From: Albifimbria verrucaria
Lineage: Eukaryota > Ascomycota > Sordariomycetes > Hypocreales > Stachybotryaceae
DNA: 64,000 nucleotides
Direction of reading: 5' to 3'
Assembly: GCA_020081605.1 (NCBI GenBank)
Contig: JAHREC010000007.1
Location: 868,001-932,000 of the forward strand
This document shows, piece after piece, positions 20,749-26,798 of this stretch (positions are counted from its first letter, which is position 1; each line of letters begins with the position of its first letter). Both the position numbers and the translations under genes were made by a program. The notes beneath the pieces are model-generated. The model saw nothing but the letters and a program-made list of their open reading frames with translations. It was not told the DNA's origin and did not search any database.

Positions 20749-21501
20749 TGTATTGATGAGTAGAGGGTTTTCTATTATTTTCTTCCTCAAGATGAATGCT
20801 ATAATACTCCAATTTGCAGCACCAGAATTGAATCAATTTCCTTGTGTGGTTTATAACGAGGCATTAATCTACAAGTCATGATGTCGTGTATTCAGCCGAG
20901 AATAGCATGTTTGCCCTCAGCGTGCGCTACTAGTGATGCTATCACCTGCTATTGGCTGTAGGGGATCACGCAATTGCACGAGACAGCTGGTAGACCAGGG
21001 TCGTTAGCAGGCGCTAACATCTTCATCAACTTTTGATAGTGATATTTTGATAGTGATATGTATTAAGCAAAGGAGAGGGCATGTTGTGATGAAGGATTGA
21101 GCAGTCGAGGAGCAGGTATGAGTAAAAATGACGAGTCAGAAAGGTACCAAACCTGGTACACAGACCAAGACACTGGATTTGGAAAAGCTTGTTACCGAAG
21201 GAGCTTATGAAAACGGCGCATCTGAACCTGATGCGGGAGGTCAAGCCTACAGAGTTGTATCGTGTGCAGGTGAAATACGCTCGGAACATATAAGCCGGCA
21301 TCTCTAAGCCTCGCCGTTTTCATCGTAATCGAGATCTCATCTAGATCAGTCAAGCGTGCCATTCACACCCAGCGCAGCAACCGCTGGTAAAGCCGAGACA
21401 TTTGGCAAATCGGCCACCCACGGAACGGGACCAAGGGTTAGACATGCTCAGTTGAAGGGAGCAAAAGTTACGAGTCCCTAAGACATGGGAGCAAAAAGAA
21501 C
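20749..21501. other. Intergenic region upstream of the tRNA-Ile cluster
   Basis: No gene is supported. A duplicated TTTTGATAGTGATAT-like unit is at about 21033-21059. The AAAAA at 21493-21497 is the Pol III terminator of the first tRNA-Ile gene on the opposite strand. Confidence 0.5.
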
Positions 21502-21630
21502 TGGTCAGTATGAGGGTCGAACTCATGACCTTCGCATTATTAGTACGACTGGAGAGGAATTAGTTTTGAATGATCGATGTCGTGATATGATGGCTGCACA
21601 TACCGCTCTAACCAACTGAGCTAACCGACC
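21502..21630 (-). tRNA. tRNA-Ile(AAU), copy 1, interrupted at position 26/27 by a spliceosomal-type intron
   Basis: The exonic arms are complete: acceptor GGTCGGT/ACTGACC (one G-U pair), D arm GCTC-AGTTGGTTA-GAGC, G26, anticodon arm TCGTA-CTAATAA-TGCGA with anticodon AAT, variable AGGTC, T arm ATGAG-TTCGACC-CTCAT, discriminator A. The 74-nt mature form is normal. A 55-nt insert (21549-21603) separates G26 from the anticodon stem. The Pol III A box (TTAGCTCAGTTGG) and B box (GAGTTCGACCC) are intact on either side. A TTTTT terminator lies just past the 3' end. These signs argue for a live gene rather than a pseudogene, provided the insert is removed. Confidence 0.9.
21549..21603 (-). other. 55-nt GT-AG intron-like insert inside tRNA-Ile copy 1
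   Basis: Read on the tRNA strand the insert starts GTATGTGCAG, has AAAACTAATTCC near its 3' end and finishes CTCTCCAG. This matches the fungal spliceosomal layout: GTATGT donor, CTRAY branch site about 12 nt from the acceptor, CAG acceptor, total length about 55 nt. Removing exactly GT...AG yields GAGCG/TCGTA, identical to the uninterrupted tRNA-Ile at 22734-22807. The longest T run is two, so Pol III would not stop inside. Confidence 0.8.
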
Positions 21631-21708
21631 ACGCTTGAGACTGCGAGATCCAGCCCTGAATTAAATCCCCAGACTATACACGAGATAGAAAGAGCAAAAA
21701 AGAAGGAA

Positions 21709-21836
21709 TGGTCAGTATGAGGGTCGAACTCATGACCTTCGCATTATTAGTACGACTGGTGAGGGAATTAGTATGCGTGGTCGAAGATGTTGGTGATAGT
21801 TGTACATACCGCTCTAACCAACTGAGCTAACCGACC
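21709..21836 (-). tRNA. tRNA-Ile(AAU), copy 2, interrupted at position 26/27 by a spliceosomal-type intron
   Basis: The exon sequence is identical to copy 1: same acceptor pairing, D arm, AAT anticodon, T arm and discriminator A. A 54-nt insert (21756-21809) is at the same site between nucleotides 26 and 27. The terminator is TTTTTT on the tRNA strand (AAAAAA at 21696-21701). Copies 1 and 2 are about 80 bp apart in the same orientation, suggesting a local duplication followed by divergence of the insert interior. Confidence 0.9.
21756..21809 (-). other. 54-nt GT-AG intron-like insert inside tRNA-Ile copy 2
   Basis: Read on the tRNA strand it starts GTATGTACAA, has GCATACTAATTCC (very close to the TACTAAC-type branch consensus) and ends CCTCACCAG. 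Compared with the copy 1 insert, the donor, branch region and acceptor are conserved while the middle is clearly different. That is the expected pattern if only the splicing signals are under selection. The longest T run is two. Confidence 0.8.
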
Positions 21837-22733
21837 TGGTGTGGGGGTGACGGTTTCCCCGCGGCTTTATATGCCAGGAATTCTAGCGTCGTTAGTGTTG
21901 AATGAATCTGCAAGGATACTGTAGTTTGGGAATGGTTGTCCATCTTGGCTGGTATCCTCAGCCATGAGCCGAACCGTTCGTTTCTAAGCAAGCCTAGTCA
22001 CAAGGCGCATACCGTACGGAACATGAGGCTCATTTCATCACCTGCAGATACGAACTGGAGGGGGCTTTTTGTATATGCAACGACTCGTTTGCAGGAGAAC
22101 CAACCAATAACAGTGTTTCGTTGATCAGTCTCCCTTGGTTTAGGCCGAGACATCAGTGACAGGTCACAGACAAGGAAAGGCAACTTCGTAACATTGAGAT
22201 CATGCTTATGATTCGAAATAAGTGAAGTTTTCAGCTCTTATTAAGCTAAGGACATGTTCAACACAGCCCTTTCGTCTGTATACTAATGTTGCCGATGTGG
22301 TGATGGATGGCTCTGGAGGAAGATACACGAATTTTGTCGTGGTCCTGAACAATCTTTTGGAAAACGACCACCGTTCCATAAGAGACCTAAATATCATCAG
22401 GAATAAAAGGAAGGATAGTAATTTGTGATTTAATGTCTTTCATCTAGTAATGTATACCGTACAAGGAAATCTGGAGGCCTAGCCAAGTGTAGTTGATGGA
22501 GGATATCAGTAATGGCATGTGCTATAAACTTACCTTGGCCTCACTCAACCGCCAGGGCCGCGGAGATAGCCTATGCCTTCTTGAATTGCACTTTGGCAAC
22601 ACCATTTTTATAGGAGCATCAATCAACATTCACATAAAGTGATTAGAAAAAAAGGAAGAAATCAGAATCATTCCAAGCGAAACGAGGCTAACATCAGACC
22701 TGCCAAGTGAGTGGGAAGAAACCACAAAAAGAA

Positions 22734-22807
22734 TGGTCCGTATGAGGGTCGAACTCATGACCTTCGCATTATTAGTACGACGCTCTAACCAACTGAGCTA
22801 ACAGACC
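22734..22807 (-). tRNA. tRNA-Ile(AAU), uninterrupted copy
   Basis: A 74-nt intronless gene. Acceptor GGTCTGT/ACGGACC, D arm GCTC-AGTTGGTTA-GAGC, G26, anticodon arm TCGTA-CTAATAA-TGCGA (anticodon AAT), T arm ATGAG-TTCGACC-CTCAT, discriminator A. From nucleotide 8 to 65 it matches the interrupted copies exactly once their inserts are removed; acceptor-stem pairs differ in a compensated way. A TTTTT terminator follows. Confidence 0.95.
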
Positions 22808-24879: not shown

Positions 24880-26798
24880 ATGGCCTTGAAGCTGGTGCCA
24901 TCGTTGCTCGTCCTCCTGACGCAGCCTTTCTTCGCTTGGGAGCAAGACGGGAGTTTGACTTTGAGATCACCTGGGCTCGAGAGGCCCCGGCAGGTCTGTC
25001 TAGACCTTTACTTTTAGTCAATGGCCAATCTCCGGGTCCTCTTATCGAAGTTGACCAAGATGATTGGGTCGTTGTTCGACTTCACAACAATGCAGCGTTA
25101 AAGTCTGCCATCCACTTTCATGGTAAGTACAACAACTATTATATACTTATTCTATACTTACAATTTATTCAAGGTCTTGAGATGCACAACTCTCCTTGGA
25201 CTGATGGCGTTCCTGGTGTCACCCAACGTCCCGTCCCGCCCCATACCAACTTCACCTATGAGTTCCAAGCAACACAGTACGGAAGCTACTGGTACCACGC
25301 TCACTACCTCAGCCAGATCGAGAACGGCCTAATGGGCCCTATTGTGATTCACCCTCGCCCTGGCGACCCCAAGCCCTTCAACCTCATCTCTCAAGACGAG
25401 AACGCGATCAAGGCAATGGAGCATGCTGAGCACAAGGTCCGACCGCTGATGATCTCGGACCTCACACGCCTACACGCCCATGAGAAGTGGCTCGTGACAC
25501 AAGCTGCAGGTCTTGAGATCACATGCTACGATGCCTTTCTATTCAATGGCAAGGGCAGCGTCGGATGCCTCACTCCTGAAGACATTGAGACGCATATAAG
25601 CCCACAACAGGAACGATTGTTGAAGCTTTCCCTGGCTCTCAATTGACAAACAAAGGGTAAGCTCTTCATGATTCTTACAACTTTAACCGAGAACCGTATT
25701 TTACTAACACGCCAAAGGTGCTTGCCTCCCAAGGTTATGGGTAGAGTCGGCGGTGTCAACGCTGTCTTCAACACTAGTGCCATCCCGCGCCGCATCTTTT
25801 ACGATTGTCAACCGACCGAAGGCGATATCGAGGTGATCCATGCGCCCAAGTCCTCTGTTCCTGGGGAGCGCTGGGTGGCCATAGACCTCATCGCCGCCAC
25901 CAACTTCTTCACATATGCGGTGTCCATCGATGAGCATGACATGTGGATCTACGCCATGGATGGATCCTATATCGAGCCACAGAAAGTCCAGGCCGCTATC
26001 ATGACCAATGGCGACCGCTTCTCGGTGCTTGTCAAAACTAGCAAGCCGGGAGACTTCAAGATCCGCGTCAATTCGGTTACTGCGACGCAGATGCTGACCG
26101 GCCATGCGCTGCTATCGGTTGATGGGGCTGGCAAGAATGCTAGATCCGAATCCAAGCCTCACATCAACATTGTCGGTGGACCTACGTCCAAGGGCGTCGC
26201 CTTCTTTGACCAAACCAAAGCCGCGCCATTCCCACCTGACCCCATTGCCGAGGTCGCAGATCAAACTCATATCCTGACCATGCACATTGACGGCGCGTCT
26301 TACCTCTGGGCATTGAACGGATCGCGCCTAATGCCCAACAAACTTGATGACGCACCACCAGTCCTATTCTATCCCCAGCCAGATGTTCAGAACAATGTCA
26401 CAATTACAACACGTAACAATACCTGGGTAGACCTGATCTTCATCGCCGCTGAAATTCCCATGCCACCTCACCCAATTCACAAGCACGGCGTCAAGATGTA
26501 CGAGATCGGCTTCGGCACGGGGCCGTTCAAGTGGGCATCTGTCGCCGAGGCCGTCAAAGACCAGCCCGAGAACTTCAACCTCGTCAACCCTCCACGCAGA
26601 GACTCGTTCGCGACAATACCCGCTGGCAAGGACATAACATGGACAGTCATGCGCTACCACGTCACCAACCCTGGGCCGTGGCTGCTACATTGCCATATTA
26701 TGAACCACATGATGGGTGGCATGATGATGGTGATTCAGGATGGCATAGATGCCTGGCCAGAGGTGCCGTTAGCATATCGGGACAAGCCCAAGGAGTAA
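24880..26798 (+). CDS. Multicopper oxidase (laccase / ascorbate-oxidase-like), secreted
   Basis: Exons are 24880-25122, 25174-25656 and 25718-26798; introns are 51 and 61 nt, the second with a CTAAC branch site. A signal peptide (MALKLVPSLLVLLTQPFFAW) is followed by the first cupredoxin domain (FDFEITWAREAP, VNGQSPGPLIEV). All four copper motifs are visible: IHFHG, WYHAHY, HPIHKHG and HCHIMNHMMGGM. Type 1, 2 and 3 copper ligands are therefore present and the enzyme should oxidise phenols or similar donors with O2 reduced to water. The axial type-1 position is Met. Missing bases near 24945 and 25631 (CCC run) are each repaired by one base. About 600 residues is normal for ascomycete MCOs. Confidence 0.85.

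Follow-up and report, generated by a model that had tools for sequence, protein, structure and literature searches.

Two adjacent tRNA-Ile(AAU) genes of the fungus Albifimbria verrucaria each contain, between nucleotides 26 and 27, a short insert that carries the signals of a spliceosomal intron. From the organization of the DNA it is very probable that both are functional genes whose RNA polymerase III (Pol III) pre-tRNAs are spliced by the spliceosome. The genes lie in a window of 64,000 nucleotides (contig JAHREC010000007.1, positions 868,001 to 932,000), the whole stretch of DNA that was analysed, together with an intronless tRNA-Ile(AAU) gene (Table 1). An initial annotation had proposed that a Pol III transcript is processed here by the spliceosome. 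The present analysis supports that proposal: most of the testable features fit, and the processing is predicted from the DNA.

Table 1. Coordinates of the split tRNA-Ile(AAU) genes and associated features in the window
Feature	Position	Strand	Details
tRNA-Ile(AAU) gene 1	21630-21502	minus	129 nt; exon 1 = 21630-21604, exon 2 = 21548-21502; 26/27 interruption
tRNA-Ile(AAU) gene 2	21836-21709	minus	128 nt; exon 1 = 21836-21810, exon 2 = 21755-21709; 26/27 interruption
Intron 1, spliceosomal-type, gene 1	21549..21603	minus	55 nt, GTATGT...ACTAAT...CAG
Intron 2, spliceosomal-type, gene 2	21756..21809	minus	54 nt, GTATGT...ACTAAT...CAG
Branch-point-like CTAAT, intron 1	21559..21563	minus	A 12 nt from acceptor
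Branch-point-like CTAAT, intron 2	21767..21771	minus	A 13 nt from acceptor
Intronless tRNA-Ile(AAU) gene, empty-site comparison	22734..22807	minus	Rfam RF00005, 65.4 bits; ARAGORN
T5, Pol III terminator-like, gene 1	21493..21497	minus	5 nt past gene end
T6, Pol III terminator-like, gene 2	21696..21701	minus	8 nt past gene end
T5, Pol III terminator-like, intronless gene	22726..22730	minus	4 nt past gene end

Structure, constraint and transcription signals of the split genes

Genes 1 and 2 are spaced 78 bp apart and, inserts aside, have full acceptor, D-, anticodon and T-arms. Both coordinates and sequence agree with the initial description of complete tRNA arms interrupted after nucleotide 26, in a numbering that counts a base 20a. 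The sequence likewise bears out the description of inserts of 55 and 54 nt that start with GTATGT, contain CTAAT near the 3' end and finish with CAG. Excision of GT...AG from genes 1 and 2 yields identical 74-mers with a complete cloverleaf and the anticodon AAU, and a terminator-like T-run follows each gene. The resulting junction, annotated as GAGCG-TCGTA, is indeed identical to the corresponding sequence of the intronless gene; a difference at pair 5:68, which the annotation had not mentioned, must be added. The spliced 74-mers differ from the intronless gene solely at 74-mer positions 5 and 69, the two partners of this acceptor pair, which is G-U in the split genes and U-G in the intronless gene, so that pairing is kept. 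The excision junction is ambiguous by one base, with G at both cut ends, and is settled because the GT-AG rule picks the cut. When the cloverleaf pairs were imposed, 20 of 20 were complementary, in the unspliced RNA of the split genes as well. Unconstrained minimum-energy folds gave the full cloverleaf in neither split gene, nor in the intronless gene, and are uninformative either way. With the insert at the hinge, folding of all four tRNA helices would in principle be possible in the unspliced transcript.

The two split genes were compared for the distribution of their differences. In a computed alignment of introns 1 and 2, the signal columns (GTATGT, CTAAT and CAG) were identical at 14 of 14 positions and the other columns at 25 of 42 (Fisher p 0.005). 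The insert middles are identical at 18 of 32 positions, a value reached by 10% of shuffles. For the 60-nt flanks, identity was 0.52 downstream (shuffles 0.51) and 0.51 upstream, about two standard deviations above the shuffle value of 0.44 (sd 0.03). The exons are identical at all 74 of 74 positions. Turnover has thus been extensive in the flanks and inside the inserts but has spared the tRNA body and the splice signals. Exons and signals that stay constant while their surroundings turn over are what would be expected under selection for both the tRNA and the excision of the insert. For a random insert of the same base composition, the chance of a 5' GTATGT together with CTRAY 8-20 nt before a terminal YAG is approximately 1e-7. 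Exon-only gene conversion could add to the exon identity. Genes 1 and 2 are probably related by duplication, and because they are adjacent and probably duplicates, the evidence from the two counts as one event.

Each of the three tRNA-Ile(AAU) genes in the cluster is followed by a T5 or T6 run starting 4-8 nt downstream, and T-runs inside the genes, introns included, never exceed two. A and B boxes of the split genes were read by eye against the consensus. A/T-rich words were also noted upstream; they come from a short self-chosen list that had no chance control, and carry no weight here. The T-runs bear on the idea that RNA from these loci arises and is spliced only as part of Pol II transcripts, with the tRNA product incidental or regulatory. 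In favour of such an arrangement, Pol II transcripts are the usual setting of spliceosomal introns (PMC8527467). Each gene has its own T5 or T6 run, however, and the exons show the constraint of a tRNA, which leaves this idea with hardly any probability.

Occurrence in the genome and number of tRNA-Ile(AAU) genes

Pattern searches covered the genome of 48.4 Mb in 41 contigs. A pattern joining the D-arm to GTATGT (up to 3 mismatches) found genes 1 and 2 alone. A second pattern, CTAAY...YAG followed 24-27 nt on by a B-box core, matched 19 places, namely genes 1 and 2 and 17 others; a full anticodon stem with T33 was absent from all 17 of these others. A CTGAY pattern ending in CC gave 17 places, which were judged by eye. 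The scope of the search was thus the 26/27 insert with a CTAAY branch and a GTTCRANNC B box. A model (R1) run over 77 sequences gave 61 matches, in which the split genes scored 89.1 and 84.7 bits and the next match 52.2, scores to be read with the Ile row that R1 contains. A query of gene 1 with intron 1, used as a check for introners, matched this cluster alone (common words skipped, 2 candidates scored). Four scans of viral contigs gave no match; one was a control, which showed that they contain no tRNA-Ile with this anticodon arm, and this collection is therefore uninformative on conservation.

Two patterns for the 3' half of the split tRNA (up to 3 mismatches, whole genome) recovered three genes, all in this cluster. 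A fourth tRNA-Ile(AAU) gene, intronless and of clearly different sequence, was encountered by chance at L038:614-687 (G000:C15). The genome therefore contains at least four tRNA-Ile(AAU) genes, and since a further intronless one exists, the split genes could be dispensable. An argument that set gene number against codon usage was dropped, the tRNA-Ile(AAU) count being incomplete. Its ingredients were the Ile codons AUU and AUC, which make up 5.6% of the 2842 codons counted in six ORFs of the window, and nine Phe and nine Asp tRNA genes found by ARAGORN. An Rfam tRNA census, with 63 matches from 63 scored of 1591 first-look candidates, is incomplete, whole isotypes being missing from it.

The gene number also bears on whether the split genes are tRNA pseudogenes, in which the inserts arose by chance or as a copy of an mRNA intron and from which no mature tRNA is made. 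Other tRNA-Ile(AAU) genes are present in the genome, and according to a passage in the review by Yoshihisa (PMC4090602), genes with short insertions in the D- or T-arm, mostly one of many synonymous genes, are supposed pseudogenes. Against pseudogenes stand the full identity of the exons, next to insert middles and flanks whose similarity is that of shuffled sequence or close to it, and the fact that the splice signals, pair 5:68 and the T5 and T6 runs have all been kept. Taken together, these observations make decayed genes improbable, and functional genes with spliced pre-tRNAs remain the preferred reading.

Two protein-coding ORFs were also compared with their relatives. The ORF at 25668-26798 encodes multicopper oxidase (laccase-like) domains; because many of its named relatives are about 600 aa long, the gene probably extends upstream beyond the ORF. 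The best match of the laccase-like ORF was at 96% identity; the best named ones are Stachybotrys elegans (63%), then Stachybotrys chartarum, Paramyrothecium, Neonectria and others. Named matches of a PDR transporter ORF include Ophiocordyceps and Fusarium. As judged by sequence, these protein relatives point to Hypocreales, the order to which Stachybotrys and Fusarium belong.

The inserts compared with other introns

The fungal intron consensus, as given in the part of PMC5832005 that describes it, comprises a GTRWGT donor, an RCTRAY branch site and a YAG acceptor (CAG preferred), with a branch distance of 6-36. Both inserts fit it, with a GTATGT donor, an ACTAAT branch site 12 or 13 nt from the end and a CAG acceptor. 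Introns of the host itself were sampled from 10 gaps between Pfam-matched exons at seven proteasome loci (seven of 14 matched places, chosen for adjacent exon matches). Frame-keeping GT-AG introns of 55-92 nt close six of the 10 gaps; three of the remaining gaps are without a frame-keeping candidate and one has 17 unconvincing candidates. One of the six introns is 55 nt long, and two start with GTATGT, one of which (L110) is among the three introns (L109, L110, L111) that had two candidates, the choice being made by a score favouring usual donors. CTRAY occurs 12-18 nt before the acceptor in four of the six, and in none of those four is it CTAAT. A de novo count of motifs in 237 kb of host DNA was led by the donors GTAAGC, GTAAGT and GTGAGT, with GTATGT outside the 14 most enriched, and its enriched branch pentamer was CTAAC rather than CTAAT. 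De novo motif assemblies totalled 944 against 1222 in a reversed control, and those with good donors 35 against 32. Since this count is weak, the host comparison rests on the proteasome introns. In length and signals the inserts thus appear to resemble the introns of this fungus, although the de novo count points the other way. Joining of ORFs with EM, applied to 58 sequences (237 kb), was rejected as a source of a host consensus, as it returned 832 noisy groups and no usable consensus. U6 is represented in this genome by one strong match (47 of 3037 first-look candidates scored), which is intronless.

Canonical eukaryotic tRNA introns lie at position 37/38 and are removed by the SEN endonuclease and an RNA ligase. 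The tRNA-Pro at 6566-6464 in the window, which the initial annotation had named as an example of this normal case, was also found by ARAGORN to carry a canonical intron, which is 29 nt long and follows the base adjoining the anticodon. ARAGORN placed introns at the canonical position in tRNA-Met, tRNA-Lys and tRNA-Leu elsewhere in the genome, and SEN is therefore probably present. Two further tRNA genes with extra nucleotides were noted in passing. The first, at L070:2975-3073 (G000:C6), is tRNA-Arg(ACG)-like but differs in its acceptor stem, and its anticodon loop holds an insert of 27 nt that lies, as judged by eye, near 37/38. ARAGORN named this gene tRNA-Gly; it may be an unusual isodecoder whose insert is a canonical intron. 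The second, at L086:287-378 (G000:C41), is a tRNA-Asn gene that is longer by about 18 nt, again near 37/38 by eye, than the other three in its cluster.

The inserts of genes 1 and 2 share with canonical tRNA introns that they intervene in a tRNA gene and would have to be removed for a mature tRNA, but they lie at 26/27 rather than at the SEN-type position 37/38, and have donor, branch and acceptor signals. According to a part of a 2026 review (PMC13149111), tRNA splicing relies on structure and not on GT-AG motifs. Introns away from 37/38 do occur in nuclear-type tRNA genes of C. merolae and nucleomorphs, as PMC4090602 describes in part, where they are bulge-helix-bulge-related or, in Guillardia theta, 3-24 nt long; the same review, in which the word stem 'spliceosom' does not appear, calls eukaryotic non-canonical tRNA introns rare. 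By analogy with these nucleomorphs and red algae, and with archaea, the inserts might be non-canonical introns cut by SEN at bulge-helix-bulge-like structures, their GT-AG ends being coincidental. A scan for such structures found three of four central pairs in gene 1 and two of four at most in gene 2, with a flanking helix of at least two pairs in neither; the scan has little power, because the canonical tRNA-Met intron also scored just three of four. The probable presence of SEN and the three central pairs in gene 1 are consistent with such cleavage. The low pairing in gene 2 (a weak test), folds around the splice sites that are unlike between the two genes, and the minute chance calculated above for the full GTATGT-CTRAY-YAG arrangement argue against it, and SEN cleavage is very unlikely to be the explanation; removal by the spliceosome is the favoured one. 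Group I and II introns have a catalytic core of some hundreds of nucleotides. A self-splicing intron of either group was rejected for inserts of 54-55 nt, and no Rfam intron family reached the gathering cut-off in the window.

The split genes also affect annotation. ARAGORN without introns, and Rfam at the gathering cut-off, each reported the intronless one alone of the three tRNA-Ile(AAU) genes in the cluster. With introns allowed, ARAGORN called one split gene tRNA-Trp(CCA) and the other tRNA-Cys(ACA) and placed other introns in them; an annotation that relied on ARAGORN would therefore give them wrong names. tRNAscan-SE 2.0 handles non-canonical introns in archaea, according to part of its description (PMC8450103). 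An annotation tool can thus miss or mislabel such split tRNA genes.

Precedents and proposed processing

Spliceosomal introns are regarded as a feature of Pol II transcripts; the known exceptions lie in U6, U3 and some rRNA genes. Among the closest in kind are the introns of fungal U6 snRNA genes in S. pombe and others, which are likewise mRNA-type introns in a small Pol III RNA (in part from PMC5832005); there the host RNA is U6, whereas tRNAs, the hosts here, have a splicing pathway of their own in SEN. Introns of fungal U3 snoRNA genes resemble the inserts in their GT-AG ends, GTRWGT donor, RCTRAY branch site and CAG acceptor, but they lie in another RNA and are longer, with a mean of 92 nt compared with 54-55 nt, as reported in sections of PMC5832005. 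In that source, intron-bearing and intronless U3 paralogues are described in one genome for eight species, including Fusarium, and a passage states that, among small structured RNAs, frequent interruption by an intron is known for U3 and U6 alone. Action of the spliceosome outside Pol II transcripts is further exemplified by ectopic spliceosomal introns in lichen rDNA, and one of these, 57 bp long, is spliced out of Pol I rRNA in yeast, as parts of PMC8527467 report; those transcripts are Pol I rRNA, and the ones considered here would be Pol III tRNA. A tRNA with a spliceosomal intron was not found in the open-access literature, as surveyed through best-ranked titles and abstract openings. Judged by analogy, the mode would be that of the U6 and U3 introns, and the host RNA would be the new part.

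In the proposed pathway, two functional nuclear tRNA-Ile(AAU) genes would carry short U2-type introns at the hinge between D-stem and anticodon-stem. Using the internal promoter, RNA polymerase III would transcribe the gene in full and stop at the T5 or T6 run. The spliceosome would then act on the pre-tRNA, with U1 on GUAUGU and U2 on ACUAAU; the 54-55 nt would leave as a lariat and exon 1 would be joined to exon 2. End processing and modification would follow and give rise to an ordinary tRNA-Ile.

It is accordingly likely, though predicted from the genome sequence, that one fungus uses two chemically different splicing pathways for its tRNAs, canonical introns being removed by SEN and ligase and those of tRNA-Ile(AAU) by the spliceosome, and that part of its isoleucine decoding depends on splicing capacity. 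If true, the spliceosomal exceptions would extend to tRNA itself, and a pre-tRNA that is short, folded and presumably uncapped would prove to be a possible substrate for U1 and U2. The supply of a tRNA would be tied to the splicing machinery, and the cluster would provide a natural pair with and without the intron for the study of spliceosomal intron gain.
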